IMG/VR virus record: IMGVR_UViG_3300017788_000177
Coordinates: 1 to 23,492 of that record
DNA: 23,492 nt
Direction: 5' to 3' (one strand)
Source: a virus
In this document: in pieces, positions 2,310 through 19,906 of the stretch
Layout of the letters: each line of letters opens with the position of its first letter
How positions within the stretch are numbered: position 1 is the first letter of the stretch
Translations under genes and position numbers: made by a program
The notes under the pieces: generated by a model
Told to the model about the DNA's origin: nothing
The model's database searches: none
What the model saw: the letters and a program-made list of their open reading frames with translations, nothing else

Positions 2310-5300
2310 TTATTTGATCTCTAAAGGATTTCCACTTTCATCAGTTAACGGACCGGATCCATCTTCTAACAATAATGTATTGACATTTATTACATCTTTA
2401 ATTTCTTTGTATTTATCGACCGTAGTTCCTAGCGAGTCAGCTCTGGTTTGTTTGATAAACAGCGCCGAAATGTCGTCTGAATCCCTTAGGGCAATCCCTT
2501 TTGGACTCCACATTTTTCCTATGCGCTTTTGTACAACTATTTTTTGACCTATCTCCGGTAATTCCGTCAGTCTTACTGACTGTGAAATCCCGTCAACTGA
2601 AAATTCGGCTTCTAATGTATCGTCTCCATTAATACTATCTTGCCCCAAATCAGTATCCCATTTACGTATCGGCATTTTTCTTAGACGGCGGCCAGCAACA
2701 AAAACTTCAATTTCGTCGCATTGTCCGAAATTATCTGGTATAGTTTTTCTCGTCCAACTATCTCCGATCAAACTAGCAGCGGTTACATTTGGCACAAAAT
2801 TTAAAGGTATGATTCTAGATTGATTACTTATCACCATGACGTTAGTCACAAATTCATCTTTATAAGGTATAAGTTGCTGTACACTAAAATCTTTTACTAA
2901 AGTATCTATAGGGTATTCGTTTGCTATACCAGTTCCTAAGGTACCTCGTCTAATTTTTCTTAAGGAATTTCCAGATTTTTCTAAGTATTCTATACGCTCT
3001 CCGTCGACTAGTATTACCCCCGGAATCTGATTGTTAGTATCAGGTTCGAGAAGACCGGTCGAATCAAAAACTTCAATAGATGTGTCATATTTTTTCAGAG
3101 GTTTAGTTAAAAGTGTGGTTCTACGATCATCTATTCGAATGTAAGATATTCTGTTCAACAAATCTTTGAATATTTTATAGCCGAATGTAGTATCCGACGG
3201 ATTAGTGTCAAATACTATAATATCAAAAAACCCAACATCTTTCGTAATCCTATCTGGATTAATTTTTATAGATTTTCCGTCGTCATCTAAAATATAATCT
3301 CTATAAGGAAGTAACCAATCTCCATCGTCGATCACCCAAACTGAAAATATGTTTTTAGCTGGTTTAGTTAGATCGATGATACCATTCCTTAATTTATTAA
3401 ACCTAAAATATCGAGGAGATTCCGGACTAGAAGTAGTGACTGATTTAATAACTTTATAATCTCTTTCTATAGATAATATATCATGATTAGAGAATGTTGT
3501 AATTGTGATAATTTCACCGGAGAGCGGAGATGTTTTTAATCTAATGGATACTATAGAATCAGTTTTATTAATTTTATAGTCACCGGTATTTAAAACTACC
3601 ATGGCTATAAAATCATTAGGTTGTAATACTGCCTGTCTAAATCTTAATTCGTTGTTTTGCGGTTCCCAATCATAGTCGACACCCAGTGTTTTTAAGGAAC
3701 CGTTTTGATAGACTTCAATATCTGTGATTAATAAATTGTTCAGAGGGAAATCTACACTATCAATAAAAAAACTTCGAGCTGGAGGGGATGCTCTAAAATA
3801 AAAAGTCCTGTTTGGAGTTTTTATTTTACCATTAACATTAACAATGATATTAGTTTCTAAAGGTCCTGATACTGCCGGAACATTTGGTATAACATATTCT
3901 AACAAAGAACCGTTTGACGTCACCGTATATTTTTGCATCTTGCTGATAGAATTTTCAATTTCAGAAGTTATAATATATTCTATCAATGCATCACGGGGCG
4001 GATTTTCAGCAAACCTAATACCGATGTACCCCTCATCAGATACAAAAGTAATAAATCCTGCATCTTTTCCATCTATCGTAACGAAAATTGAAAAATCTTC
4101 TCTAGATTTCGCTAATGTAACAAATTCATTTTTATTTCCTGTTGATCTGACCGTGTCTATATCTAACAGAGAAAATGCATTTTTTCCAAAACTAACTACT
4201 GTTAATATTTCATTTGACGGTAATGTTGAAAGCAGCAATTCTACAGAATTATCTATATAGTCAACTTTATAATCAACGTTCTGTGTTAAAATTTGATTTG
4301 AAACTTTTAGGAATACCGATGACTGATTTTGTAAAAATTGCCCAATTAAATATTTTCTAGTAGAACCATCTAGATAATAACTTTCAAACAATATAAATGG
4401 TTTTTTATCATAAATTCGATCATAAACAGAAATATCAATAGTATCCATTACTTGCCCGGGAATAACTTCCTCAGGTGCTCGGCTAGTAGTTGGTGTTACA
4501 AAATCATCACCGTCTAATATGATCTCTTCTGGTCGAAGGCCCCTAGCAGTATTATAAGAAAAATCACCACCGGTTAACTCTACATCAAATGTCTTGTCAT
4601 CAGGCTTAAAACTACCATCGCTGGTTGATTTTCTAAAAATTATAGTATCTATAAGATCATTTGGTGTAAAATCTCCAAGAAACGGAGCATCGGCCGGTAA
4701 GGTTATAACCGCTTGACTATTACCATTTCCTACAAAAGAATTCATTATTGCAAAAGGATTAGATAATTTAGGAGCTTGATCAAGCTGCTGACGAGTTATC
4801 AATATATCATTTTCTAAAGAAATTCGATCAACTTCTAAATTTGATATTAGACTAGTAGTTATATTTGCTTGGAATATTGCCGATGTTAGTTGATTATTTG
4901 TAGAATTATACAAGGCTTGCAACGACTGTTGCTGGTCAATTAAGGTTTGATTAGTTGGGTCGGCAAAAAGCCTTGCTGCTATTATAACTAATTGTGCATT
5001 TAAATTAATCAGCTGTTGTGTAGATGTTTGAATAGTTAAATTTAACGCGGTTAGCTGGCTATTTCCGATCAATATATCATTTTTAATTTGATCGAGATCT
5101 AATAATTGTTCTGCTAATTGAACTGAAAGAGGATTATTTGCATTGAAATTAATATCATCGATCCGTACACCGTTAAGGTATATGTTTATTATTTCTCCTG
5201 CTGCAGGAATATAAGGTAAAGTCCATGACCTTGTGGATCCGTCACTTTTTACCACAAAATCTGTGAAATCTCTATCAAAATTATCCCATCCCGAAATGCT

Positions 5301-8300
5301 CCAAGGTAATGCGTCCCACCCCGACCCAATATCGAAAGTTAATCCTCTAATTTCAACTCCACCGTAATCAACCCCTTCCATGAGTTGTCCAAGATCTTTA
5401 CCTATCATTCCAGAATTTGGTTTATAATAGTGTTGTATTCTATCACTGGCATTTAATAAAGATATATTTTTTCTATACTGTACCGTTATAGAAGAAAAGT
5501 TTTCAGGGGCCTGATCGAACATGATTCTTCCAAATAGTCTACTATATGAAGAATTAGCATCAGATATGTTCTCTAATAGATAATCAGTAGGCAATAATTC
5601 TTCTTGCGCAATTTTAATAATTGTTTTATCAATTCTCAGGTCTATAGGCCACTTTAAATCAAACACCCTCTTAGATCCAGTTCCTATAAAATTTTCAGAA
5701 ACATTTAAATTTGATATAAAATATTTTGGTGCTGTTCTATCAAATTTAATTTCCATCGAGTTAGTTCTAGTCAATGGCTTTCCTAAAATAGGAAAAGCTC
5801 TAGCAGATCTACCTCGATCATTAAAGGCTCCAATTATTTCTATCTGAGGGGTTGATGCATATCCGCTACCAGGTTCTTCTATCTCTATTCTAAATAATTT
5901 TCCTTCGCTGAGATATGCTCTAGCCCGAGCAGGGACATCTGCTATACCCTGAATATTAATAACAGGAGGAGTAAGATAACCCTCGCCCGGGTCTGTGACT
6001 TCTATTCTATCTATGCTAAATCCTAGGTTATTTGCCCAGTCAGTGTACGGTTCTCGATCTAACATCGGATCATCATAGATTACCAATCCAGATTGTACAG
6101 AAGTCCTAACTACTTCAATTTTTTTACTAGTAGTACTATAAACCGGTGGTAAATCGAAATCGGAAACTTTTGAATTTGTTTTTTCTATTTTTTCATAGGC
6201 CGTGACAAATTCTTTGATCTTAGTTGAATATGGTTTTACTTCTTCGATGTATTCTCTATAGCTATTAAGATTGTTATTTTTAAAATTAATCGGTTGATCT
6301 AATTCTCCTAGATTATGTTTACCCACAATAAATGCTGTTTTGAATGCCCAATCTACTAACTTTTGTTCGGTAAACACATATCGAAGGCTCGAAAAAAACA
6401 GCTCTTTATATCGAGGTTTCAATTGATCGACTAATATATTATTTTTAATAACATCTAAAATTATTCTTAATTCTTCTTTAGGCTGTTCGTCATATCCTTC
6501 ACTATCGAAGATAGGACCATCAAATCCAATTCTACTATTTTTAAATTTGTAAAGATTAGAATCTAATTTTATAGTTCCATCTTTTCTGCCGATCGTTTTA
6601 AAATTTATGTTCAGGTTTAAACTATCACTGTCACTGGTTTTTTCTAATAGCAACCATCCCCCAGACCCTTGATTGTTTACTTTAACCGTTTCCCCTAATT
6701 TAATATCTTCAAAAAATATTTGATAAGAAAAATCAACGATATGATCTATCTTAGTATACTGATTATATCCCTCAGCATACCAATCTTTATATTTCCAATA
6801 TAAGGTAGTGTCAAATGTCTGGGTTCGTTTTTTAAACCAAGTTAAATTCTCCCCGAGCTCATAAAGACTCCATTTTCTTGAACTCGTTTCATCGTTTATT
6901 ACTAAAGCAGAAAATCCTCTAGAAACTATAGCGGTGTCACTATTATATTCTTGCCCGGATCTTATTACGTCTATGGCGGTAACCTGTCCTTTAACATTGA
7001 TCGTAGCTTTAAGTTCAGCGCCATTTCCTGAGCCGACTACAATAATTACAGGTGCAGTAACATATTTCTGTCCCGGATCGTTTATTATTACTCTTACGAT
7101 TTTTCCTTGTTCTATAACCGGTTGTGCCTTTACTTTCTTAAATCCAAACACTGTTTCAAATCTGAGTTCACTAGATGTATTAACAACAACGTCAAACTCG
7201 CCCGAATCTATCGTGGGAGGTTCTTCTCGACTATAAAGTTTAGAAAGTTGAAAATCATCCACTAACAAGTTTTTTTCAAAAATCGAGTTGGCTCTTTCAA
7301 CAAATTGCTTCAATGCTTCTATTCGATTTACAAACATGCTTTGCCGGGGTCTATTTAAAATTCCATATTTTAATTTTTCTGGCAATTGATTATCAGGAAC
7401 AATATTTCCGAATTGGTCGTATCCTATGAGGCTATCTATCCATTTCTTTTCTATAAAGGAATTTAAATCATTAAGATCATCAGTTTCAGATAAAATCTGA
7501 TAATGAGAGTGTATGTTGACCTCAGTATTTCTTATAGTCCATATCTGTATATTAAGATTAATTTTGTTTCCGATAAACAGATTTCTACAATTTACTAGAT
7601 TGAATTGATTAGTTCCTAAAAAAGTAATAAACTTTAATTTCATCGAACTAGGATCTTCTATGTATCTAGCAACATCGCTGGCTGAAAGTTTTCTATTTTT
7701 AACACTTGGAGTCGTTGTTGGTCTAACTACCCAGTAATAATAAATATTCTTAAAGACTTTGCTAACATTGTCATAGCGTTTTTTCAGGGTATAAGCAGCA
7801 TCACCATAGAGACTACGTCCAGTAATATTTAGAGATTCCCCGTCATCTGAATTAGCTAATAAATCCCACTGTGAGGGAAGATAACTGCTTTCTACCCATT
7901 CGCACACACGCACTGATGTTCCTGAAAAAATAGAGTTCCATGTATTAGATTTATAAAGTACCGACCCCTGATTTGCTTCAATGAATCGAGTCGAAGAAGT
8001 GTCCCACCATAACTCACCTACATGATTTTTACCCCAAGACATATCTTCGTCTAACGATAACATAAAGTTATCACTGTAAGAATAAGTTGCAGGATCGTAA
8101 GGAACTTTATATGTTATTTCTTGATCTGCCACTCCTGCAATTTTTCCCCTTAGGGGATCGATAAAATCTAATTTTTCTATTATTTCACTAGTTTCAGTAT
8201 TATAGAGAGATACTGATTTGATTTTAGACAAGTCAACGATAGGCGCTGACTTTCTATAAATTTGCCAAGCTTTTCCAAAAGATTCAAATTCATATAGGAT

Positions 8301-11300
8301 TCCACTAAATTCTAGAGGATCATTGATGTAAACATGATTGTTTACTACTTTAATTTGCGATCCATAATTTGGTCCTAATTTTTTTATTTCATTTTGATCG
8401 ACTATTAATGTTTCAATATCACAGGAGTAGATAAACTTTTCTTCGTACCTATCAAATAATTTAACGGTACCGGTAAATTCAGATTCGTCTATGATCTTGG
8501 TATTATTGGCGTCAAATGTTGTTCTTCCTAGATCAAATGTTGTTTCGAACGTCTGGCGGCCGCCTGCACCAAAAACCACCAATTGGTCTGATGCAAAAAA
8601 CTTTAGCTTAGATCCAAAATTTTCAGAATCGGTAGTTGCTGCGAGTATCTGTGATAGGTCATAAAACCCGTCATCGTCATTTATTTGATAGATTGCTACG
8701 GCTCCATCCTGTGATCCTGATCCAGAAAAATTAGGAGCACCGATAGCTAGATATTCTGCTGTATGATCTAAAGATAGAGACTTACCAAACTCGGCGTTAT
8801 TAAATTGCTGGCTCGGTAATAACATCAGTTGCGTTTCGTTTAATGAAAGATCTAAAACAAAAACTTTATTATCTGTCAAGGAAACAACAATCCTATTTCC
8901 GGCAGTATCCATATCTATTATCTGCGCTTCTTGGAATGTTTTCTTTGAAATTATATTATTACTAGCTAAAGAAAATTTATATATAGCTGCAGGTGCGTAT
9001 TCCACGGGAGACCATAACGTTGTTACAGACGTGTTATTAACTGACGAGGACCTATGATTATTAACTGCGATAAATCCCTGCCATTGTCCATCAATCTCGT
9101 CGCAAACAACATCATTAATACTATAATCTTTATTAGACGACCAAAGTGCCTGACCCTTAGATGCGATAATAGCATATCCGTCATTAGAGTATGCTACCCT
9201 ATAACCAAATTGTTCTCCTGGGGCACGGTTTACTGAAGTATAAGTAGTTTTTAACGAAAAATAGATATTATTGTTATTTTTTTCGTATAGTACTGCAAAA
9301 CCTTCTCCTTCGGAGTTTGTGCTATCGCCTGAAATATTTTTTGCACGTGGGGCGCCAACTAATAATCGTTTTCCATCGTCGGATATGTCCATCGAATCAC
9401 CAAAACTCTGGCTTCCGAGGGATCGTCTAAAAGGAATATCAATAAATGGACTTATTTGATCGACGCTGACCCAATCGCTTTTTTCAGTAGGTCTAGTATA
9501 GTATAATAATCTATTAAAATTTGCTGTTACTAGTGTTAAGTTATCTTTGCTGACAACAAAATTTCTCGCAAATCTACGCTCAGTCTCTTTTAAATCTCTT
9601 CTACTATAAGAAGGAGAAAATTTCCAAACTTTCCATCCTGCATCGCTGCCAGCATTGTCAATCCAAACTAGCTCATTGGGCTTATGTTTAATTGTTCGTA
9701 TAATTTGGTTATCAAAAGACGCCAGTCTCCAAGGTATAATTTTATTAAAGACCAACGATTTTTTAAGAAAAATATTGTTTAATCGTTCCTGCGTGATATT
9801 CTTAGAATTTTGTATGGTAAAAGATTCGGGAGTTACTTTCAATATTTTTCTGAACCCAACTAGGTCAGTATTCGTTGTTTTTATTAAAATATATTCGTTT
9901 GCAACTATTCCTGCGTCAGTTAACCCATTATAAACGACTTTGATATTTCTATCAGAATCTATTTCCATAGACACAATAGTTTGATTAAAAGTCGTAAATC
10001 TTCGTACTTGCCACGAAGCCGTATCATAAGCGATCCATGCATAGTCTCCTTCTCGTATCTGATCTACGGCTAGGTCTTTGATATCCTCATAGGTTACTAG
10101 GCTGAAATTTACATCTTCTCTAACAACATATCCTGCAGAATCTAAAACCGTGCTATTACTATTCATTGTTAAAAACGGTTTATGATTATAACCTTCCGGT
10201 TTGATATAAATTTGATCAGGAAGGATCCTATAAACTATGTCGTTATCATAAGGATCAAGTTCATTGACTAATTCTATAGGTTGTACGTCAATTTTAAAAT
10301 TTTTTTCGTCTAAGTTGTATTCTAATTCGTCAAATGCCTCACTAGCTCCATATTGCCCTAGCCTGATAGCCCATTGTTCATGAAATTCTATGCTATCTTT
10401 CTGAGAAAAATTTAATGCATCAAACATTTTATTAAGACTGTTTTTAGTACCTTTTTCTCTAATCATCCCCTGATAAAATTTATACTGAGATACGTCATCA
10501 TTAATGATATTAGCTAGATATCTACGATTTTGATAACCTATTAAATGTTGCGCAAATTTTTGTTGGTTAACATCAAAATTATCACTATCTAAACTATAGA
10601 AGTCAGCAAATTGATTAGCTCGATATTCCCAGTTTGGTAACAATCTAGAAGTTGGTTTATTAACTTGTCTAATCCACTGGGTTGGATCAAATTCGATAGC
10701 GCCCGGAACATTAACTCTAGCACTGTAATAAAATTCTTTAAATCGAACAGTGTCACCAATAGAATAATCTACCCACGGCTTCCAATCTAAGGGAGTTACC
10801 TCATCATAGATAAACCCCGGTATAGAAAAGCTACCATTCCAATCAAATGTTTTATATCCTACTACTTTTATGCGGTCTTGCCTGTAACCAGTCTTTCTAT
10901 CATAGATGATATCATTAAAAATCGTAACATCATCTATAACTAATACATGTTCTTTGCTAACTAAATCTAGAGATATAAAATATATGCCGTCTGAAGTATT
11001 AACTGGAATTAAATTAAATTTATTTCCATCTCTATTCGAAGATATAAAATTAGTATCTAAAACATTGCCATCTTGTTTAAGGACGTTATATTCGTCCGGG
11101 CCATTTATTATATCATTTACTACAACGAAATCTTTAAAAAATTCTACATTTAATGCTGCAGGACTAAGGCTAATAGCTGAATTGATGTTCCAGTTCTGTG
11201 TAGTCCAATACGCAAATTCTCTAGCAGACAGCGACCAATCCATGATTGTCTGAAGTCTTTCATTGAATGTTTCAAAAACAAATCCTATGTGTTCTAGATA

Positions 11301-14300
11301 TTTTCCGTATCCTAACAGAAAATCGACTACCTCTTGGACTGATTTTAAGTTAGTTCCGTAACTTAAACGTGTTGGTGATGATTCGAATTTAGATCTTAAA
11401 ATAAAAGATCTTCCTCCGGAAATAGGCAACGACTCCAACTTATCAAAATACTTTAATTCGAATACCTGTGAACTACGATGCTCAATGGTTGTTCGATAAA
11501 ATCCGTTGTCGTATCTTACGATAGAACCCTTGGCGTAATATCGATCTGCTGCCCAGGTAACGTATGGTTCGGATATTCCCCCGATATTTAATACAGGATC
11601 TAACGCTATAGTTATAGGTTTAAAATAATCAAACTCTGACACATTTAGATCATAACCATTAACAGAATATCCAAACATAGTGCGCTCGATAACTACTCCA
11701 CTGTACGAAATACGTTCTATAGGCGAGCTTGTGTTTAAAATTATGCGATAATTTTCATTAGGTACAAAAACGTTACCCTCATTTATCGGTGTTCTGCTAT
11801 CTAAAATTAATTTAAATTTTTCTTTAGATACAAATCCTTCCAACTTAGAAGATAATTTAACCGACAAATTAGAAAATTTTTCTCTATAATCATTAACTGC
11901 TGATAAAGACTTATTAATTATAAATTCTGTGATATAATTAATAAGTCCACTACAAAATATCGAATTTTCCGAAGAATCTTGCACTGTGCTAGGATATTCG
12001 ACATTAAGATTACTAAATCTAAAATCACCTGATTTAGTTCTATATATTAATTGGTCGTCTTCGGAATATACCTGACGACTTTTGTCGAAGATTTTTGCAA
12101 ACATTTCAGCAGGTTTTAAAATGGTCAATGCGATAATTATAGCGAACGGATATTGGCTAGATCTCCTCCAAGCTGTTTCTATCGGACCTTGATCGCCGAA
12201 TTCGAAATCAGCGTCTATATATTCATTATAAAAGTTATCTATCAGCCCCGCTTCTAGCGGGTTTAATAAATCACCCGAAGAATTAACCGGTAAATGATCT
12301 AAGATAGTCGGTCTAGCAAAATTATTGTCGTATCTGGGAAATTTTGAATCTCTAATTAATCCCTGAGCGATGTCATTCCATAATATTTGATTGTCTTTGG
12401 TATATGGTGCCGGTCCATAAAAATCTTCCCACCAGATAGGTTTTTCAGAAAAACCCTGCATTTTCCATGGTTCTAAATGAGGGGCATCGGTATCATAGAA
12501 TAGATTATAAATCCCCCTCCAACTTCCGGGTAATTCTACCCCGCCCTTTGAAAGAAATCTATTATAATTGTAGCTCCATGGGTTATTATAATCAAAGAAC
12601 GTGTTTTTTATGAAATCTCTATTGATGGATCTATTCCATTTTAGGAAATCTTGCAATAAAACTGCATTGAAATTTTCCAAAGATACATCACTGGTACGAT
12701 ATGCGCCGGGTAAAAAAGATGTTAGATATCTATCATATTTTATTTTTGTATTATTATAAATTCTTTTTTCTAATTCTAATAACAAATGATCTCTAAAGTC
12801 ATCATAACAAACTATAGTACTCCCATCGTGACCTCTGATAACCTTAGTCGGAGTTTGATATGTTTCATCTACATATATTTCCGGGGTATATAACGGATAT
12901 ATCCCTAATTTAGTAGGGGTAGGGGGAATAAAACAACCATCAGTGGTTTCATATTGTACTATCTTTAAACGATCATTCCGTTGCACTTTAAAAATTCTTA
13001 CGAAATTATCATTGAAAAATTCGTATTCTTTACCGTGTAAAAGTTGTTGATCGTTAAGATATACTAAAACAGATTTATTAGACAATGAGGTTAGGTCAAA
13101 CGAAAAGCTCAAAGGATATTCTTTGATAGAATCATCAATGATAGTCTGAGAAAAAACTTTGTTAGCCCTATAGCCTAACATATCGCTAAGATAAAACGGC
13201 ATAGATTTATCTTTGTCTTTGGTCATCTCTGATAGGATTAAATCTAAATGTTGATAAACTTCACCGTCAAACCCTAGATCTTCTGCATGTTTAATAAAAT
13301 TCTTTTTAAATTTATTATACTCTTCCGACGCGAATCTCAGAGCAGATATGATGTTATAATCATTATTTGTAAAATGATATATTACTGGAAGCAGAGAACT
13401 AGAATGTTGTACTATTTTTTTACCGTAGTTCGAGATTGGACCTAGATCTCTTAGATTATTTGATCCAAAAAGGTCGCCTTGAAAGTTATCTAAATTCTCT
13501 ACGATCGACCGTATATGATCGATCATTTGACCCAACGTTAATTCAGAGAGGTTTTCGTTAAGGGGGTTATCTTCTAAGTTTGATGGGAATTCATAGAATC
13601 CCTGACTATTTTTAGGCTTTTTAGATCTAGTTTTTACTAGTAATACATCTCCCTGATCTAAATTTTCAAAAAATCTCAGGTATACTTTTTTATCTCTTTG
13701 AAAAATTTCAAAATCAATTATCGTTTGTCTTATATTATTTAGAAAAACTTTTATTTTTAAATCATCGAGATCAATATTATCATAAACATCAATAGGAAAC
13801 AAGTTTGTCGACGCATCAACAATATTATATTGATTAATCACCCATTGATCGCTGGTTGACGAAGATTTTATCCATCCATTGACTTTCTTTAATCCTGCAT
13901 CAAAAATCTTTAAAAGATAACCAGTGTCAATTTTTTTCTGTATCACACTTGAAGACAACTGGTATTGAAAATTATCTTGATGAAGATTAAAATCAAATAT
14001 TATATCACCTATATTTTCAATGCTTCTATACGAAATAGGAATTCCTAATTCGCTATCAATAGTGTTTCCAGATTTGTAACTAATAATTTTAGTACCACTA
14101 AATGTTGAACCTGGATATTTTGATCTATCGCTAAAACTAATTCCCCCCGAATCAACTACATCAAATAATGGTGATTGATTTATCTCGGTCTTTTGTTGTG
14201 CAGATACCCATTTACCTAGCATAAAATGATACATATTACCTGCATGATTTCCCATCAATGGCACTACTGTATCGCCTTCATTAGGTAATGAGTCATCTTC

Positions 14301-15995
14301 TTCTATCAAAGTTAATCTTTTGATTCCAAGATGGGTAACTGTGCTTACTTTAAAGATTCGACCATTAACTAATATGTCGGGGTCTGCGGTAAACAATACT
14401 CTCATTCCAGCAACAAGATTTTCTCCATCGACAACATATCCTATACTGCCTTCTATGCCGGACTGAACTCCCCCCACAGCCGATGATCCGAAAACATCTA
14501 GTGTTTTAGTATCGACCAAATCTACATATTTTTTAGCTCGAATACCAAAATTAAAAAGCTTTAATCCGGCATCAAATTCTATAATTGGTCTTTTCGCTCG
14601 CTGATTTTGATCTAAATCAATCGGTGTATCATTTATAATCGCACTTTGCTCTATCACTGATCGATGAAACCACCTATTATAACGACTCCATTGATTGCCA
14701 TCTTGGCTTGACCTATTGATTACTATATAATCCTTTTCAGCTGGGAAAGCATAATTTACATCGAATCCCTGAACGTCAAACGCCTCATTGTCAAACTCTA
14801 CGTCGCGATTATCCGAAAACGATCCCGGAACTATCAAATCATCTTCAGATATTAATTTAATTGTGGTGCCAACCCCCTCAACGTACCAATTTCCAGTCTG
14901 GTATCTCGTAGGTGTAACTTGTCCTATGAAATAAACTTTCATACCGTTAGATAACTCAGTTTCATCCTCTAATGAGTATTGTTTTTTTCCTAATATTTCA
15001 TTTTCAACATCAATCGATGTTGCTTCATCGATGTTATAAATCTTTATTAGACCGCCGGTATTAATATCATTTTTACTGACATAATACATTACATCGGGAG
15101 AATTTTCCGGTATAGTAAATTCTATTATACCTTTTTCTACATAGACCGTGGCAGATTCAACACCATCAGTCCAAATATCGTATAAATTAAATTTTCCAGT
15201 ATCTACTTTTGCTGTATTAACAGTGTAAGACCAGGATCCAGTATCAAAAGACAAAAGATCAAATGATTGAACGTCGTATAATCCGCCCGTCTCTACTCCA
15301 GATTCAGAAGCTATTATCAACGACTGCGTTGGAACAAAACTTCTAGTAGTGCTAAACGCCATGGGATGCCCTGGACAGTCGATCTCGAATCGATATCGCT
15401 GCCCTCTATACAGCTTTAACGAAGGATTCCTAGTTTTTCCGTCAGGTGAAAAGATATAAGCTTGATTATCGCCTTCATCAGATAATTCTACGGTGTATGT
15501 ACTAACTATCCCGATAGATTGTCCTTTGATTGCAATAGCCTGTGGTCCGTTTGGCAGCCAAAAGTACTCTCTATAATTGATTATCTTATCCCAGTCTATA
15601 TGCGGATTCCAGGGATAGAATTCCTGAGAATTCGCTACGCTGTGATCTGCAAAATTAAAATTATATCTCTTTAATTGGTTAGTGTAATCAACATAGTCTT
15701 TGAAATACTCAATATTTCCTAGTTTATCCTCATAAATTATTGCAGGTTCTAACTGGTAGGGCTGCCTCTGTTCGATATTATTATCAATATATTGATCTTT
15801 TACTGTAAATGCACTAGCAGTTTTTCTTCCGATAAACCCATTTATTTTTTCGACCGCACCATCTGAGATTAGTTGATCAACGGTGGCGGTTAAAAATTTT
15901 CTATTAGTATCAGTCCTAAAAAATTTAGGTAAGAATTCTAAAGATGATCGTTTATTGGAATTTTCAGAAGACTGAGTATTTTTTTTATTGGTCAT
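2310..15995 (-). CDS. Giant virion protein (4561 aa) in the gp7/gp8 position of the baseplate cluster
   Basis: It begins 1 base after the gp6 stop and ends 3 bases before the collagen-like gene, so it is surely co-transcribed with both. The N-terminus (FLPKFFRTDTNRKFL at 21-35; NPHIDWDKIINYREY at 130-144) matches my memory of very large structural proteins found after gp6 in marine T4-like phages. Segments visible in order: a cupredoxin-like stretch (about 175-320, with LYRGQRYRFEI and GHP); CBM5/12-like modules near 1481-1524, 1737-1777 and 2285-2330; an FG-GAP beta-propeller (2192-2571) with the third module between blades; GxGYxxxP repeat pairs near 2959-3022 and 3327-3396; a coiled coil (3626-3742); an EEIILDGDDFVTP / APEEVIPGQVMDT stretch (3817-3855); VDGERIEY followed by RRGTLGTG (about 4330-4360); and GQCDEIEVFVAGRR (4422-4435). 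No signal peptide or membrane segment is seen. T4 gp7 has about 1030 residues and shows no obvious likeness. A structural role is well supported; wedge or fibre-anchor function is inferred. Confidence 0.8.
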   Translation of the reverse strand: MTNKKNTQSSENSNKRSSLEFLPKFFRTDTNRKFLTATVDQLISDGAVEKINGFIGRKTASAFTVKDQYIDNNIEQRQPYQLEPAIIYEDKLGNIEYFKDYVDYTNQLKRYNFNFADHSVANSQEFYPWNPHIDWDKIINYREYFWLPNGPQAIAIKGQSIGIVSTYTVELSDEGDNQAYIFSPDGKTRNPSLKLYRGQRYRFEIDCPGHPMAFSTTRSFVPTQSLIIASESGVETGGLYDVQSFDLLSFDTGSWSYTVNTAKVDTGKFNLYDIWTDGVESATVYVEKGIIEFTIPENSPDVMYYVSKNDINTGGLIKIYNIDEATSIDVENEILGKKQYSLEDETELSNGMKVYFIGQVTPTRYQTGNWYVEGVGTTIKLISEDDLIVPGSFSDNRDVEFDNEAFDVQGFDVNYAFPAEKDYIVINRSSQDGNQWSRYNRWFHRSVIEQSAIINDTPIDLDQNQRAKRPIIEFDAGLKLFNFGIRAKKYVDLVDTKTLDVFGSSAVGGVQSGIEGSIGYVVDGENLVAGMRVLFTADPDILVNGRIFKVSTVTHLGIKRLTLIEEDDSLPNEGDTVVPLMGNHAGNMYHFMLGKWVSAQQKTEINQSPLFDVVDSGGISFSDRSKYPGSTFSGTKIISYKSGNTIDSELGIPISYRSIENIGDIIFDFNLHQDNFQYQLSSSVIQKKIDTGYLLKIFDAGLKKVNGWIKSSSTSDQWVINQYNIVDASTNLFPIDVYDNIDLDDLKIKVFLNNIRQTIIDFEIFQRDKKVYLRFFENLDQGDVLLVKTRSKKPKNSQGFYEFPSNLEDNPLNENLSELTLGQMIDHIRSIVENLDNFQGDLFGSNNLRDLGPISNYGKKIVQHSSSLLPVIYHFTNNDYNIISALRFASEEYNKFKKNFIKHAEDLGFDGEVYQHLDLILSEMTKDKDKSMPFYLSDMLGYRANKVFSQTIIDDSIKEYPLSFSFDLTSLSNKSVLVYLNDQQLLHGKEYEFFNDNFVRIFKVQRNDRLKIVQYETTDGCFIPPTPTKLGIYPLYTPEIYVDETYQTPTKVIRGHDGSTIVCYDDFRDHLLLELEKRIYNNTKIKYDRYLTSFLPGAYRTSDVSLENFNAVLLQDFLKWNRSINRDFIKNTFFDYNNPWSYNYNRFLSKGGVELPGSWRGIYNLFYDTDAPHLEPWKMQGFSEKPIWWEDFYGPAPYTKDNQILWNDIAQGLIRDSKFPRYDNNFARPTILDHLPVNSSGDLLNPLEAGLIDNFYNEYIDADFEFGDQGPIETAWRRSSQYPFAIIIALTILKPAEMFAKIFDKSRQVYSEDDQLIYRTKSGDFRFSNLNVEYPSTVQDSSENSIFCSGLINYITEFIINKSLSAVNDYREKFSNLSVKLSSKLEGFVSKEKFKLILDSRTPINEGNVFVPNENYRIILNTSSPIERISYSGVVIERTMFGYSVNGYDLNVSEFDYFKPITIALDPVLNIGGISEPYVTWAADRYYAKGSIVRYDNGFYRTTIEHRSSQVFELKYFDKLESLPISGGRSFILRSKFESSPTRLSYGTNLKSVQEVVDFLLGYGKYLEHIGFVFETFNERLQTIMDWSLSAREFAYWTTQNWNINSAISLSPAALNVEFFKDFVVVNDIINGPDEYNVLKQDGNVLDTNFISSNRDGNKFNLIPVNTSDGIYFISLDLVSKEHVLVIDDVTIFNDIIYDRKTGYRQDRIKVVGYKTFDWNGSFSIPGFIYDEVTPLDWKPWVDYSIGDTVRFKEFYYSARVNVPGAIEFDPTQWIRQVNKPTSRLLPNWEYRANQFADFYSLDSDNFDVNQQKFAQHLIGYQNRRYLANIINDDVSQYKFYQGMIREKGTKNSLNKMFDALNFSQKDSIEFHEQWAIRLGQYGASEAFDELEYNLDEKNFKIDVQPIELVNELDPYDNDIVYRILPDQIYIKPEGYNHKPFLTMNSNSTVLDSAGYVVREDVNFSLVTYEDIKDLAVDQIREGDYAWIAYDTASWQVRRFTTFNQTIVSMEIDSDRNIKVVYNGLTDAGIVANEYILIKTTNTDLVGFRKILKVTPESFTIQNSKNITQERLNNIFLKKSLVFNKIIPWRLASFDNQIIRTIKHKPNELVWIDNAGSDAGWKVWKFSPSYSRRDLKETERRFARNFVVSKDNLTLVTANFNRLLYYTRPTEKSDWVSVDQISPFIDIPFRRSLGSQSFGDSMDISDDGKRLLVGAPRAKNISGDSTNSEGEGFAVLYEKNNNNIYFSLKTTYTSVNRAPGEQFGYRVAYSNDGYAIIASKGQALWSSNKDYSINDVVCDEIDGQWQGFIAVNNHRSSSVNNTSVTTLWSPVEYAPAAIYKFSLASNNIISKKTFQEAQIIDMDTAGNRIVVSLTDNKVFVLDLSLNETQLMLLPSQQFNNAEFGKSLSLDHTAEYLAIGAPNFSGSGSQDGAVAIYQINDDDGFYDLSQILAATTDSENFGSKLKFFASDQLVVFGAGGRQTFETTFDLGRTTFDANNTKIIDESEFTGTVKLFDRYEEKFIYSCDIETLIVDQNEIKKLGPNYGSQIKVVNNHVYINDPLEFSGILYEFESFGKAWQIYRKSAPIVDLSKIKSVSLYNTETSEIIEKLDFIDPLRGKIAGVADQEITYKVPYDPATYSYSDNFMLSLDEDMSWGKNHVGELWWDTSSTRFIEANQGSVLYKSNTWNSIFSGTSVRVCEWVESSYLPSQWDLLANSDDGESLNITGRSLYGDAAYTLKKRYDNVSKVFKNIYYYWVVRPTTTPSVKNRKLSASDVARYIEDPSSMKLKFITFLGTNQFNLVNCRNLFIGNKINLNIQIWTIRNTEVNIHSHYQILSETDDLNDLNSFIEKKWIDSLIGYDQFGNIVPDNQLPEKLKYGILNRPRQSMFVNRIEALKQFVERANSIFEKNLLVDDFQLSKLYSREEPPTIDSGEFDVVVNTSSELRFETVFGFKKVKAQPVIEQGKIVRVIINDPGQKYVTAPVIIVVGSGNGAELKATINVKGQVTAIDVIRSGQEYNSDTAIVSRGFSALVINDETSSRKWSLYELGENLTWFKKRTQTFDTTLYWKYKDWYAEGYNQYTKIDHIVDFSYQIFFEDIKLGETVKVNNQGSGGWLLLEKTSDSDSLNLNINFKTIGRKDGTIKLDSNLYKFKNSRIGFDGPIFDSEGYDEQPKEELRIILDVIKNNILVDQLKPRYKELFFSSLRYVFTEQKLVDWAFKTAFIVGKHNLGELDQPINFKNNNLNSYREYIEEVKPYSTKIKEFVTAYEKIEKTNSKVSDFDLPPVYSTTSKKIEVVRTSVQSGLVIYDDPMLDREPYTDWANNLGFSIDRIEVTDPGEGYLTPPVINIQGIADVPARARAYLSEGKLFRIEIEEPGSGYASTPQIEIIGAFNDRGRSARAFPILGKPLTRTNSMEIKFDRTAPKYFISNLNVSENFIGTGSKRVFDLKWPIDLRIDKTIIKIAQEELLPTDYLLENISDANSSYSRLFGRIMFDQAPENFSSITVQYRKNISLLNASDRIQHYYKPNSGMIGKDLGQLMEGVDYGGVEIRGLTFDIGSGWDALPWSISGWDNFDRDFTDFVVKSDGSTRSWTLPYIPAAGEIINIYLNGVRIDDINFNANNPLSVQLAEQLLDLDQIKNDILIGNSQLTALNLTIQTSTQQLINLNAQLVIIAARLFADPTNQTLIDQQQSLQALYNSTNNQLTSAIFQANITTSLISNLEVDRISLENDILITRQQLDQAPKLSNPFAIMNSFVGNGNSQAVITLPADAPFLGDFTPNDLIDTIIFRKSTSDGSFKPDDKTFDVELTGGDFSYNTARGLRPEEIILDGDDFVTPTTSRAPEEVIPGQVMDTIDISVYDRIYDKKPFILFESYYLDGSTRKYLIGQFLQNQSSVFLKVSNQILTQNVDYKVDYIDNSVELLLSTLPSNEILTVVSFGKNAFSLLDIDTVRSTGNKNEFVTLAKSREDFSIFVTIDGKDAGFITFVSDEGYIGIRFAENPPRDALIEYIITSEIENSISKMQKYTVTSNGSLLEYVIPNVPAVSGPLETNIIVNVNGKIKTPNRTFYFRASPPARSFFIDSVDFPLNNLLITDIEVYQNGSLKTLGVDYDWEPQNNELRFRQAVLQPNDFIAMVVLNTGDYKINKTDSIVSIRLKTSPLSGEIITITTFSNHDILSIERDYKVIKSVTTSSPESPRYFRFNKLRNGIIDLTKPAKNIFSVWVIDDGDWLLPYRDYILDDDGKSIKINPDRITKDVGFFDIIVFDTNPSDTTFGYKIFKDLLNRISYIRIDDRRTTLLTKPLKKYDTSIEVFDSTGLLEPDTNNQIPGVILVDGERIEYLEKSGNSLRKIRRGTLGTGIANEYPIDTLVKDFSVQQLIPYKDEFVTNVMVISNQSRIIPLNFVPNVTAASLIGDSWTRKTIPDNFGQCDEIEVFVAGRRLRKMPIRKWDTDLGQDSINGDDTLEAEFSVDGISQSVRLTELPEIGQKIVVQKRIGKMWSPKGIALRDSDDISALFIKQTRADSLGTTVDKYKEIKDVINVNTLLLEDGSGPLTDESGNPLEIK
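4772..5120 (-). other. Coiled-coil hairpin segment of the giant protein
   Basis: Residues about 3626-3742 are rich in Leu, Ile, Gln, Asn and Ser, with Leu/Ile at heptad-like spacing (for example LAEQLLDLDQIKND and QQLINLNAQLVIIAARL). A break at FADPTNQT sits near the middle and a second helical stretch follows. The flanks are beta-rich, so this reads as an antiparallel helical hairpin projecting from the chain. Confidence 0.6.
8283..9420 (-). other. FG-GAP (integrin-type) beta-propeller segment of the giant protein
   Basis: About five blade-like repeats are visible: SFGDSMDISDDGKRLLVGAP; EQFGYRVAYSNDGYAIIAS; EFGKSLSLDHTAEYLAIGAP; ENFGSKLKFFASDQLVVFGA; and NYGSQIKVVNNHVYINDP. Each has FG (YG in the last), a strand, a turn often with DG, then a hydrophobic strand, which ends in GAP in two copies (VGAP, IGAP). 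This is the FG-GAP signature of integrin alpha chains and many bacterial surface proteins, which fold as a beta-propeller. Ligand and metal binding are not established here. Confidence 0.65.
9008..9145 (-). other. CBM5/12-like module 3, inserted in the beta-propeller
   Basis: The segment LWSSNKDYSINDVVCDE, then QWQGFIAVNNH, then TTLWSPVEY follows the same Trp / Tyr / D-x-V / closing-Trp plan as the module at 10664-10790. It lies between two FG-GAP-like blades, so it is probably a loop insertion displayed on the propeller surface. Confidence 0.5.
10664..10790 (-). other. CBM5/12-like module 2 in the giant protein
   Basis: The segment DWKPWVDYSIGDTVRF, then FYYSARV, then FDPTQWIRQ shows every landmark of the CBM5/12 fold: first Trp, Y-x-x-G-D-x-V, the Y-x-A strand and a closing P-x-x-W. 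This family binds chitin or cellulose in known enzymes. In phage virions it may bind host surface glycans or serve only as a spacer. Confidence 0.6.
11424..11560 (-). other. CBM5/12-like module 1 in the giant protein
   Basis: The translation reads W, then YYAKGSIVRYDNGFYR, matching the chitin-binding type 3 / CBM5/12 pattern of W, about six residues, Y, G-(D/S)-x-V, then an aromatic G-x-x-Y strand. The usual last Trp is replaced by FELKYFDKL, so this copy is the weakest match. Confidence 0.45.
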
Positions 15996-15996
15996 A

Positions 15997-18900
15997 TTAT
16001 CTGCTAGATATTCCTGTATTATAGTTTGTCAAAGCAGTTAACACCGGACCTAGAGACTTAATCTTAGTCGCTGTTATTTCTTGTATGATTTCAATGTCAT
16101 TAACTGTAGCACAATTAGCGAATATCTCGTCGGTATTTGATTTTATTTCGTATAAACTTCCAAACGCTAGATCTGCTCTTTTCGGAACTATGACAATATT
16201 CGATATTTTTGGTGTTAGTTTTGTCATTATGTATGTAGAAAGTTCTGCAAAATAAAAAGTATCGCCAAACTCCCAATTTTCAATACTAAAAAATTCATTC
16301 ATCGCTTCAATTACACCGGCTTTAATTTCACTGTCGCTAATTACCAAAGAATCATTCTTTACTACCTTTATAATACCTTGTAAAGACGAATCTGCTTTGT
16401 TACCGAATAAATTTTTAAATTTTACAGGATGGTATATTATCTCATCACTGATCGATTTAGTTTTTTCTATCTCTTTAGAAAAATTAATATAAAGATTATC
16501 GCTGCTAGGTGGTAACGGTTTCTCTTCTATTAGCCCGCTCAACCATCGTTTGTACTCTATCTCGTAAGACTTAGTTAATATATAGATATCTATTATATTA
16601 GTAGATGACGGATCTATTCGAGATGATCCGTCTGCAGCATGTACATATTGGAACTTAATATCATTCCTTCCCACTAATCCTCTAAAATTGGGTTGTATAA
16701 TAAAATCTGGGATTCCGGCAATATATTTCTTTACGGTATTTTCATCAACAACAAATACTAGTTGCCCGTCGGGCAGATTAGTTCTATCTCGATTAACTGC
16801 ATCCTGTGTAAGATATGATTTAATCTTAGTTCTACCTTCTTTATAATAATAAAAATCAATTACACCATCGGGCCCTAATCTGCTTTCTTGAAATATTATC
16901 TTTTTTTCTATATCTGTCCCAGGATTAACAAAGTAGTCAAAAACCGAAGGATCATCAACAACACCGTCATCATCTTTATCAAAAAAACTTACAGATATTT
17001 TTTTAGTATCAATGTAACCATCAGATCCTTTATACTCTTCGATTACTTCCCAATTTAAGTCAAACCCTATAGGCTGAGACGAGTCAGGCATCGTATTAAT
17101 ACCCAATATAGAAATCCTATCTTTAATTATAGAACTTGTAAGAATGTCGTAGACTTTATCTGTAGAATCATAGAAAAATCTTACTTCCTTTTCGCTTTCA
17201 AATACATAGCGATTACCTAGATATGTTGTTGTATATTTTGTATCATTGTTTTCAAATAACAATATCCAACTGGCATCTTGCTGTGTACCTGTCTGATCTC
17301 CTGATTTACCGAGATCAAAGCTAGAATTTTTATTAACATTGCTTCCAGTAACTATCGCCCATTTACTGTCAATTTGATCGTATCTGAGTCCGAAATCTTT
17401 TTTGGCAAAAATTAACTCGGCTGCTCTAGATCTAATCCCGTCATTTAAACTAGTAACAAATCGTGGTATAACGCTAGATAATATAGAATTTGATGGTACA
17501 ACCTCATTGAATACCAGCGACCCCTGAGATCCTATTATGCTTGTTCCATCTCCGACTAGTCTAACTACCTTGGTCCATATATGTAACTTTGCACCTTTAC
17601 CGGCTTTTGCTATAGGAATTAGCTCGTTATTTTCTGTAAAAATATAACCTGTCGGTGGAACAAATTTTAGTAAGGCTCCAACTTTTATGGTTCTAAATAT
17701 CGAAGAAGTAAATTCTCCGAGCTTAACAGGAGCATTATTAGCTGAATCTTTTAAAAATCCCGTTGTTTGATTTAAAGTTTTAGACAACTGAACAAAGGAA
17801 GCTAGATCTTCTGGCTTCAACTCTCTGATAGGATAATTTGATAGATAAAAATCTCTTAATATTTTTTTATTTAAAATTGTTTCTACATCGTCCCGTAGTA
17901 CCGCTTCAATATCAGTAAACGTATCAAAAGTAAAGTCAAACCTCTCTCTAACTATTTCTCTATAAACCAATCCGTCTGTTCCAAATATATTGGTACTACT
18001 ATATTTTCCGGTGACGTCTTTTAAATCAAAATATCTAGAAATGCCGGAACTAGCTCTGTTCAACGCTTTCGATTTTAAAATTTCTTGATTAGTAGAGGCC
18101 GGAATTAGATTATAATCTTCCCCGGTAATCATTCTGTTCTGAGTATAAAAACTAGCAGGAGCGTTGGATCTTATTTCGTCTGTAGTTTCAGATGAGGCAG
18201 CGTTAGAAACGGTATACTTTAGTGCTAAAGTCATTGACAAGGTTTCTTGTCGATTCTTTTTGCTGGTATAGGGAATGGATACTGTAACATTTTGTATGTT
18301 ATTAGGACTAATTGAATAAGAAATCCCATTACTGGTTCGATAATAGACCTTAAATCTGCCCTGAGGTAGATCTCCAAACACACCGTCCAAAAATAATAAT
18401 CGAACACGATCATTATCTCGTGTTATCGCGGAATATATTTTTCTTTGATTTTTTGAAAGTGAGTTATAGATAATATTATTACCGATCACTGATTCAACCT
18501 TAGTCCATAACTCAGATTCTCTATCTGTTGAATCTAAACTATACAGCCATACATCATCATTATTAATATTAATTGTTTCGATATCCACAGTCTCACTGGT
18601 ACTAGGTCGAGTGATTGAAAAAGTGTTTTCTCTTAATGCTCCCTGTTTAAACAGGCAAAAAAATCCCGTGTTACTACTTGCAGCTCCTCGACCATCTTCT
18701 CTATATAAAAGAGAAAACTTATTTCCAGGCAAAGGAGCTTCTTCGTAAATTTTGTCAGATTCTTGAAAGGTCCCAGAAACAACCTCGAAAGACATATTTC
18801 TTCCATCTATATTTTTTTCAAAACTAAAGACAGGTACCTGAGAGTTATTAGAATTTAATTTATATTGATGTACTAGTATGCCTTCTATATCGGCTGATGC

Positions 18901-19422
18901 TTGCGGATTACCAAATTGATTACCATTAGGGATGGCGGCATTAACGGCTTTTATAAATTGCTCGTACCAATTAGGATTAGATGGATCGTTCCACGAGATC
19001 GTTTGTTCTGAAATATCTCTACCATTACTATCTATAATAGATTCAGAAGTTGATATTGACACTAACTTTAATAACCCAGTAGCTGGGCGATTTCTTTTAG
19101 GAACATAACCTAAAAGCCTAGCTAGTCTCAGAACACTTTCTCTACGTTCTGCTAATTCAATAAAATTTTCTCTAGAATTTAAATCAAACCTAAAAGCAAG
19201 ATTTTGCCCTAAAAAGGAAATGAGGTCTATCAAAGATAAAAATTCAGAGCTTTCTATATAATCATTAAAATCTTCGGGATAATTTTCTCGGAGATAAGTG
19301 ATCATAGTCCTTCTCAGACTATCAAAATCATAGCTTTTAAAATCTGCGTTTTTAAAGCTTTGGTAGATTTTTTTCCAATCTTCAGCTACAATTAGTTTGT
19401 TTTGTCTATCGATACTTGACAT
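15997..19422 (-). CDS. 6: Baseplate wedge protein gp6
   Basis: In T4, gp6 forms the continuous inner ring of the baseplate that links the wedges. The N-terminal 30-115 region carries the family signature seen in marine T4-like phages: SYDFDSLRRTMITYLRENYP, DLISFLGQNLAFRFDLN, then ENFIELAERRESVLRLARLLGY. The C-terminus (SNTDEIFANCATVNDIEII) also fits. At 1141 residues it is far longer than T4 gp6 (about 660); the extra length is mostly beta-type sequence in the second half. A possible calcium-binding loop DKDDDGVVDD lies near residue 810. The ATG is chosen because AAGAGGA precedes it by 6 bases. It is the only gene in the cluster with a sizeable 5' gap, which holds a hairpin and a promoter-like box. 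Its stop is 1 base before the giant gene. Confidence 0.92.
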   Translation of the reverse strand: MSSIDRQNKLIVAEDWKKIYQSFKNADFKSYDFDSLRRTMITYLRENYPEDFNDYIESSEFLSLIDLISFLGQNLAFRFDLNSRENFIELAERRESVLRLARLLGYVPKRNRPATGLLKLVSISTSESIIDSNGRDISEQTISWNDPSNPNWYEQFIKAVNAAIPNGNQFGNPQASADIEGILVHQYKLNSNNSQVPVFSFEKNIDGRNMSFEVVSGTFQESDKIYEEAPLPGNKFSLLYREDGRGAASSNTGFFCLFKQGALRENTFSITRPSTSETVDIETININNDDVWLYSLDSTDRESELWTKVESVIGNNIIYNSLSKNQRKIYSAITRDNDRVRLLFLDGVFGDLPQGRFKVYYRTSNGISYSISPNNIQNVTVSIPYTSKKNRQETLSMTLALKYTVSNAASSETTDEIRSNAPASFYTQNRMITGEDYNLIPASTNQEILKSKALNRASSGISRYFDLKDVTGKYSSTNIFGTDGLVYREIVRERFDFTFDTFTDIEAVLRDDVETILNKKILRDFYLSNYPIRELKPEDLASFVQLSKTLNQTTGFLKDSANNAPVKLGEFTSSIFRTIKVGALLKFVPPTGYIFTENNELIPIAKAGKGAKLHIWTKVVRLVGDGTSIIGSQGSLVFNEVVPSNSILSSVIPRFVTSLNDGIRSRAAELIFAKKDFGLRYDQIDSKWAIVTGSNVNKNSSFDLGKSGDQTGTQQDASWILLFENNDTKYTTTYLGNRYVFESEKEVRFFYDSTDKVYDILTSSIIKDRISILGINTMPDSSQPIGFDLNWEVIEEYKGSDGYIDTKKISVSFFDKDDDGVVDDPSVFDYFVNPGTDIEKKIIFQESRLGPDGVIDFYYYKEGRTKIKSYLTQDAVNRDRTNLPDGQLVFVVDENTVKKYIAGIPDFIIQPNFRGLVGRNDIKFQYVHAADGSSRIDPSSTNIIDIYILTKSYEIEYKRWLSGLIEEKPLPPSSDNLYINFSKEIEKTKSISDEIIYHPVKFKNLFGNKADSSLQGIIKVVKNDSLVISDSEIKAGVIEAMNEFFSIENWEFGDTFYFAELSTYIMTKLTPKISNIVIVPKRADLAFGSLYEIKSNTDEIFANCATVNDIEIIQEITATKIKSLGPVLTALTNYNTGISSR

Positions 19423-19471: not shown

Positions 19472-19906
19472 TTAGGTCAAGATGCTGTTATCTTGATCAA
19501 ATCTAAACTGTAGGGCTTCAGAAATATTATAGGGAAGATATGTTAGCTCACATTCAATCTGAAGTCCGGTCTCATACTGACTTACTATTATATTGCTGGC
19601 CTGTACCCTAGGATCATAGTTTATTATTTCAGTAACATTGGCTAAAACTGCGGTTTTTGTAGTTTCATCTAAAGGATCAAACAATATATCCCAAATGATA
19701 CAACCAAACGTGGGATCTCCTATCTTTTCTCCCTGCCTTATGTAAAAATGATTGATCAAGTCTTGCTTTATAAGACTTAGATCAAATAACGCAGTTTCCC
19801 CGGGTCTGTTACCTACGGTACTCATGCCCTTATAAGTCCTAGTACCTGGCACGAAATTTTGATTAGCAGGCAAAACTGTTCTAGTATATAGAGATTTTTC
19901 TGACAT
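19472..19906 (-). CDS. 25: Baseplate wedge protein gp25 (gp25/GPW family)
   Basis: gp25 joins the wedge around the hub; it is the phage counterpart of type VI secretion TssE. Its 144 residues fit the family size (T4 about 132). Landmarks are GETALFDLSLIKQDLINHFY (36-55), RQGEK (58-62) followed by PTFG, LFDPLD (75-80), and DPRV (98-101) in the place of the family's conserved EPR motif. The C-terminal half forms the expected beta strands (GLQIECELTYL). The ATG lies 7 bases after the gp5 stop. The nearest Shine-Dalgarno (AGGA) is about 13 bases upstream, longer than ideal, which suggests coupling to gp5 translation. Confidence 0.93.
   Translation of the reverse strand: MSEKSLYTRTVLPANQNFVPGTRTYKGMSTVGNRPGETALFDLSLIKQDLINHFYIRQGEKIGDPTFGCIIWDILFDPLDETTKTAVLANVTEIINYDPRVQASNIIVSQYETGLQIECELTYLPYNISEALQFRFDQDNSILT

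Follow-up and report, generated by a model that had tools for sequence, protein, structure and literature searches.

A predicted seven-bladed integrin-type propeller in the giant baseplate-region protein of virus record IMGVR_UViG_3300017788_000177

The giant gene and its propeller

Our study concerns a giant protein encoded in the virus record IMGVR_UViG_3300017788_000177, the complete 23,492 bases of which (possibly a fragment; hereafter the window) were analysed. On the minus strand, a virion structural protein is encoded first, followed by a gp5-type hub, gp25, a gp6-like wedge, the giant protein of 4,561 amino acids and a collagen-like protein (Table 1), so that the computed gene map places the gp25, gp5-type hub and gp6-type wedge genes directly upstream of the giant gene. 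Within this protein we predict a complete seven-bladed propeller of the integrin type (FG-GAP_2), for which both fold and location are well supported by a structural model and by sequence profiles. The original prediction, made from the letters of the window, had placed an integrin-type FG-GAP propeller in a protein of the baseplate region, and this setting is borne out by the gp25, gp5-type and gp6-type neighbours and by homologues detected in virions. The collagen-like protein, which comes directly after the giant protein, is very rich in GFTGSxG repeats.

The fold was established computationally, from an AlphaFold2 model of residues 1988-2618 based on an alignment of 57 sequences (the window and 56 relatives). 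The model has a predicted local distance difference test score (pLDDT) of 82.5 and a predicted template modelling score (pTM) of 0.81, and its strands form seven four-stranded blades; a model of the region from its sequence alone (pLDDT 32) was useless and was discarded. Foldseek listed WD40 and integrin propellers side by side as matches to the propeller model. When Foldseek's top 1,000 matches were rescored with VIA-align and the best 50 rows considered, all 50 were integrin alpha subunits (Z 34.1-35.5 over 339-359 residues at 2.7-3.0 A), with 13-15% identity and a span of model residues 141-593. In agreement with this, a sequence profile of blades 4-7 (15 sequences) had integrin alpha-L (E 0.014) and alpha-M (E 0.09) as its top, albeit weak, PDB sequence matches. 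The propeller fold originally proposed is thus upheld, and neither a fold of another kind nor a lack of any FG-GAP match came up.

The repeats can also be recognised in the sequence itself. FG-GAP_2 (PF14312) matches the whole protein with 30.1 bits (cut-off 23, E 5.5e-7), which makes it a member of this family, and the insertion slot around the propeller (see below) with 38.9 bits; the FG-GAP family originally suggested for such a search (PF01839) stays below its cut-off (14.8 versus 22.1 bits). A blade profile made only from blades 1, 2, 5, 6 and 7 of the relatives, with the window left out, detects seven successive units in the window, starting at residues 2141, 2198, 2262, 2360, 2402, 2459 and 2542. 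The top unit scores 30.2 bits, compared to 6.0 for the best among 200 whole-protein shuffles, and four units exceed 3 bits, compared to at most one per shuffle. Taken singly, blades 1, 3, 4 and 6 are weak (4.8, 2.4, 1.3 and 1.1 bits), blades 3 and 4 not having been used to train the profile. An iterated profile converged on single repeats and was discarded.

The FG-GAP repeats had first been counted as about five, and the number, though not the nature, of the repeats has to be revised: FG or YG is present only in blades 2, 3, 5, 6 and 7, and the lower count is explained by FA in blade 1 and by the lack of both FG and GAP in blade 4. Exactly two blades (2 and 5) contain GAP, as had been noted. 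The interval first proposed (8283-9420, residues 2192-2570) lies inside the propeller; it omits blade 1 altogether and cuts blade 7 short. The strict metazoan definition, with FG-GAP/Cage in all seven blades, does not apply to the window propeller. Nor does the corresponding definition of the calcium loops: no D-x-[DN]-x-[DN]-G motif occurs anywhere in the giant protein, and the alignment of 57 sequences contains no DxDxDGxxD-like match. The absence of the integrin calcium loops means that the fold is of the integrin type but the protein is not an integrin. A family signature is provided by the TTFD hairpin of blade 6, where D154, F160, D161 and T165 of A5 are invariant in 15 sequences.

Table 1. 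Features of the window, with the blades and loops of the predicted propeller (residue numbers are those of the giant protein).
Feature	Coordinates	Strand	Evidence
Collagen-like protein, at least 768 amino acids, open at record end	3-2306	(-)	PF01391, 245 bits
Giant virion/baseplate protein, 4,561 amino acids (P0001)	2310..15995	(-)	phrog_10938 'virion structural protein', 1103 bits
Conserved N-terminal core, residues 1-1987	10035..15995	(-)	26-30% identity to jumbo-phage homologues over region
Insertion slot between conserved anchors, residues 1988-2590	8226..10034	(-)	126-1,862 amino acids across 150 proteins
Small domain before propeller, residues 1988-2127	9615..10034	(-)	pLDDT mostly >80; 'WNVYR' motif kept in relatives
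Predicted seven-bladed integrin-type FG-GAP propeller, residues 2141-2582	8250..9575	(-)	FG-GAP_2 match, model, VIA-align, blade profile
Blade 1, residues 2141-2184, RFARNFVVS...	9444..9575	(-)	model; blade profile 4.8 bits
Blade 2, residues 2198-2259, FGDSMDISDDGKRLLVGAP...	9219..9404	(-)	blade profile 25.1 bits
Blade 3, residues 2262-2354, FGYRVAYSNDG..., module interrupts 2-3 loop	8934..9212	(-)	model; blade profile 2.4 bits
CBM5/12-like module, blade 3 2-3 loop, residues 2280-2335, WSSNKDYSINDVV...WSPV	8991..9158	(-)	motif resemblance
Blade 4, residues 2359-2392, outer strand poorly defined	8820..8921	(-)	model; blade profile 1.3 bits
Blade 5, residues 2402-2457, FGKSLSLDHTAEYLAIGAP...	8625..8792	(-)	blade profile 30.2 bits; best Pfam stretch
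Blade 6, residues 2459-2529	8409..8621	(-)	model; blade profile 1.1 bits
TTFD..RTTFDANNTKI hairpin, blade 6 2-3 loop, residues 2477-2509, family signature	8469..8567	(-)	invariant residues
Blade 7, residues 2542-2582, YGSQIKVVNNHVYINDP...	8250..8372	(-)	blade profile 11.5 bits
Conserved core after slot, residues 2591-3300	6096..8225	(-)	alignment to relatives
gp6-like baseplate wedge protein	15997..19422	(-)	phrog_10646, 994 bits
gp25 baseplate wedge protein	19472..19906	(-)	PF04965 31.2 bits, over cut-off; phrog_261
gp5-type hub protein	19914..21533	(-)	PF22178 Gp5_trimer_C over cut-off; phrog_13211

The insertion slot and the decoration of one face

The homologues of the giant protein are the giants encoded after gp6 in RaK2, 121Q, Munch, PA5oct, SCTP-2, Atu_ph07, Phosso, Vibrio 2.275.O and others, and both the homology of its core and its position after gp6 assign it to the RaK2-like giant virion proteins (phrog_10938). 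According to its record annotation, the PA5oct homologue was detected by electrospray ionisation tandem mass spectrometry (ESI-MS/MS). Seventeen peptides of phAPEC6 gp245, a 381.88 kDa 'hypothetical protein' numbered next to the wedge protein gp244, were found in virions (PMC7247149); gp245 is probably a further homologue, since its size fits a RaK2-type protein and its position is the expected one. Homology, gene order and the mass spectrometry of homologues together support the conserved core being part of the baseplate.

In an alignment of 11 giants this core is broken at residues 1988-2590, and it is in this slot that the propeller is found. The slot measures 143-147 amino acids in RaK2-like phages and 126 in PA5oct, and the small domain that precedes the propeller appears to be the part that the short RaK2-like slots retain. 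Other domains occupy the slot in Atu_ph07 (L002:21352-24543) and SCTP-2 (L004:20845-22140). In Atu_ph07 and Phosso the filling consists of about 1,060 amino acids of other repeats; we considered a propeller here and rejected it, as Pfam gave no FG-GAP and the repeats are of a glycine-rich GYxxPP kind, with a weak CBM5/12 match in Atu_ph07 (CBM, carbohydrate-binding module). The 432 amino acids of SCTP-2 hold an unrecognised domain, and a by-eye likeness to a LamG-type lectin was dropped when nothing was found in Pfam or the PDB. Three GxGYxxPP-type repeats also lie in the C-terminal half of the window's giant protein (residues 2975, 3337 and 3376), and the occurrence of the same kind of repeat there and in part of the Atu_ph07 and Phosso slots (L002, L006) suggests that modules are shuffled within the giant protein. 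The core, too, has two CBM-like segments (residues 1481 and 1738), and the copy at residues 1480-1508 scores 20.4 bits against a Pfam cut-off of 26.2.

FG-GAP_2 was matched at E <= 0.01 in the slots of 73 of 84 uncultured-virus representatives, which were picked by similarity to the window, so that this share is not a census. Pfam scans of the slot in Atu_ph07, Phosso, PA5oct, SCTP-2, Vibrio 2.275.O and RaK2 gave no FG-GAP match, and tblastn searches of 50,697 named phage records with the propellers of two relatives likewise gave none. The relatives bearing a propeller were recovered through alignments of the conserved flanks; a search of viral and genome contig collections with the propeller only found none. 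Among the most diverged pairs compared, the slot changes faster than its flanks (mean identity 48% versus 68%).

To measure the loops, the strands of the predicted model were mapped onto an alignment of 133 slots. Loops of more than 40 amino acids number 291 in the 2-3 and 4-1 loops, which form the FG-GAP face, compared to 3 in the 1-2 and 3-4 loops on the opposite side, and the 57 most compact sequences give 106 versus 0; by this computation, the decoration of the propeller is one-sided. The longest loops are the 2-3 loops of blade 2 (831 amino acids) and of blade 3 (387 amino acids), and pairwise alignments predating the model had already located a big insertion at about residue 2222-2225 of the window, i.e. 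in the blade 2 2-3 loop.

Some of the inserted modules resemble CBM5/12, a chitin-binding type. CBM_5_12 is matched at E <= 0.05 in 19 of 44 blade-2 inserts and in 8 of the 39 modules that relatives carry in the blade 3 2-3 loop (best E 1.1e-5). Many relatives share an insert of 500-800 amino acids in the blade 2 2-3 loop (L055, L076, L096, L056) that bears 'HxLVRAPxxxYxGS' and 'HTVYxLWDGY' stretches and for which Pfam gives no family beyond CBM5/12 at its edges. In the blade 3 2-3 loop, the CBM-like module can be replaced by an alternative one of about 80 amino acids with a 'YNPVGS...GFTSGQ' motif (L081, L070, L179, L042 and others). The module of the window lies in a low-confidence part of the model.

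Possible roles of the propeller

Taken together, these observations lead us to favour, with some reserve, the idea that the propeller is a baseplate platform for host contact that displays exchangeable binding modules; the one-sidedness of the insertions supports the use as a binding platform indirectly. The propeller would be an accessory module built into the giant baseplate protein encoded after gp6, with plain 1-2 and 3-4 loops and a decorated FG-GAP face. On this face it would bear exchangeable modules, from the short CBM5/12-like one in blade 3 of the window to those of up to about 830 amino acids in blade 2 of relatives. As a rigid body at the periphery of the baseplate, it would turn modules that bind glycans or proteins towards the cell surface when the phage adsorbs; the integrin alpha propeller displays the face that binds its ligands, or the alpha-I domain inserted in it, in a comparable way. 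Such an orientation in the virion, the binding of ligands and the role in adsorption are what we infer from the fold, the gene cluster and the decoration. A bolder proposal, which we put forward only tentatively, is that, in a widespread group of uncultured jumbo phages, the integrin-type propeller serves the baseplate as an exchangeable chassis for adhesins: binding domains would be swapped near blades 2 and 3 of the FG-GAP face, in convergence with the gain of alpha-I by integrins.

Several points weigh against a platform for host contact. Pfam gives no match, CBM_5_12 included, for the blade-3 module of the window. RaK2-like phages manage without the propeller, so adsorption does not generally require it. 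In coming after gp6, the giant gene takes the same place as gene 7 of T4, and homology to T4 gp7 would have put its product in the wedge; three profile-profile comparisons of the core with gp7 gave no signal (hhalign probability <1% in each). The loop counts hang on one alignment and on the strand boundaries of one predicted model, and the 133 sequences share ancestry and are not independent events. Variable loops across homologues, which had been proposed as a check, were found as regards length and insert content but not as regards residues: mean column entropy is 2.57 bits in the decorated loops versus 2.80 in the opposite ones, so that there is no sign of hypermutation and the difference lies in insertions rather than point changes. 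Finally, loops are often unequal in propellers that serve other functions, and the one-sided pattern would therefore fit any platform use.

The main rival explanation is that the decorated face is a docking platform for other parts of the virion, such as tail fibres, decoration proteins or the adjacent collagen-like protein, rather than for the host. The location of the gene in the baseplate cluster, directly before that fibrous protein (PF01391), would suit such a role, as would the match (E 6e-7) of one slot representative to the tail-fibre attachment domain Phage_T7_tail. The propeller is lacking in RaK2 and its relatives, which bear numerous and elaborate fibres (PMC9700779), and it may thus serve a different set of fibres. 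We nevertheless consider docking unlikely, because the CBM5/12-like modules that recur in the inserts point to sugars and because a slot changing faster than the core is more easily explained by changing partners outside the virion.

Less probable still is a structural spacer, in which propeller and inserts would be bulky filler that enlarges the baseplate and has no specific ligand. A slot that tolerates anything from 126 to 1,862 amino acids, and is short in RaK2-like phages, is what one might expect of a spacer, and the lack of a DxDxDG calcium-binding motif is in keeping with it; neutral filler, however, needs neither insertions confined almost entirely to one face nor the conservation of the blades and the TTFD hairpin, and we hold this explanation to be improbable. 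CBM5/12 modules are often found with chitinases and other glycosidases. An enzyme, i.e. a seven-bladed glycan-degrading propeller targeted by its CBM modules, is nevertheless very improbable: phage endosialidases do include propeller folds (PMC4901313), and End_beta_barrel of phage endosialidase was matched in one representative of each of two slot sets, but the best 50 VIA-align rows are integrins throughout, with no glycosidases, and no Pfam enzyme family has a meaningful score in the window's slot.

Comparison with known propellers

The closest relatives of the giant protein, the RaK2-like giant virion proteins (phrog_10938; Atu_ph07 gp180, PA5oct gp355, 121Q gp582), have a homologous core on both sides of the slot and an identical gene order after gp6. 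They differ in the slot itself, which in the cultured relatives is short or filled by other domains, with no FG-GAP in those scanned. Compared to other FG-GAP_2 (PF14312) proteins of bacteria and viruses, with which it shares a score above the family cut-off, the window protein has its repeats nested in 4,561 amino acids encoded in a baseplate cluster, and domains inserted in the loops. Similar folds annotated FG-GAP are present in BFVD for giant viruses and one uncultured phage. A 393-amino-acid 'Hemagglutinin protein' of Atu_ph07 (A0A2L0UZX4 in BFVD) also resembles the propeller in fold (Foldseek E 6.5e-13) and may be a stand-alone version of it.

Phage propellers already known include the phi11 receptor-binding protein gp45, PRD1 P2 and phiKZ gp131C, which, like the window propeller, are beta-propellers in host-contact or baseplate-periphery proteins (PMC4901313). 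The first of these belongs to the baseplate and recognises N-acetylglucosamine (GlcNAc) on teichoic acid as its receptor; the propellers of phi11 and PRD1 have five blades, whereas that of phiKZ gp131C has seven, as in the window (PMC4901313). None of the three is among the structural matches listed for the window model. Integrin-type propellers were already known in bacteria (PMC3192720); the open literature searched contained no case of one that belongs to a baseplate protein and bears inserted domains on a single face, which does not prove that none exists elsewhere. Very large virion proteins are a feature of jumbo-phage baseplates, and one of these is seen here to have a slot for an integrin-type propeller. 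Its extra domains lie almost only on the predicted ligand face, which offers a concrete place to seek host-recognition parts in uncultured phages.

The likeness to the integrin alpha propeller extends to the seven four-stranded blades, the FG before strand 1 and the GAP before the 2-3 loop (PMC3192720). Integrins have their FG-GAP motif at the equivalent end of the blade and bind calcium at the other, in the 1-2 and 3-4 loops (PMC3192720); the same source, together with general knowledge of integrin structure, is the basis for regarding the FG-GAP end as the ligand face. The window propeller differs in being without DxDxDG calcium loops, and no alpha-I/vWA domain or beta-subunit partner was found. 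The alpha-I domain of integrins emerges between blades 2 and 3 (PMC3192720), from the same FG-GAP face as the phage inserts. These insertions may represent an independent case of the integrin way of adding domains, although the site is not identical: alpha-I sits in the linker between blades 2 and 3, which is 10 amino acids long in most relatives of the window propeller, whereas the phage inserts are mainly found in the 2-3 loops of blades 2 and 3 themselves.

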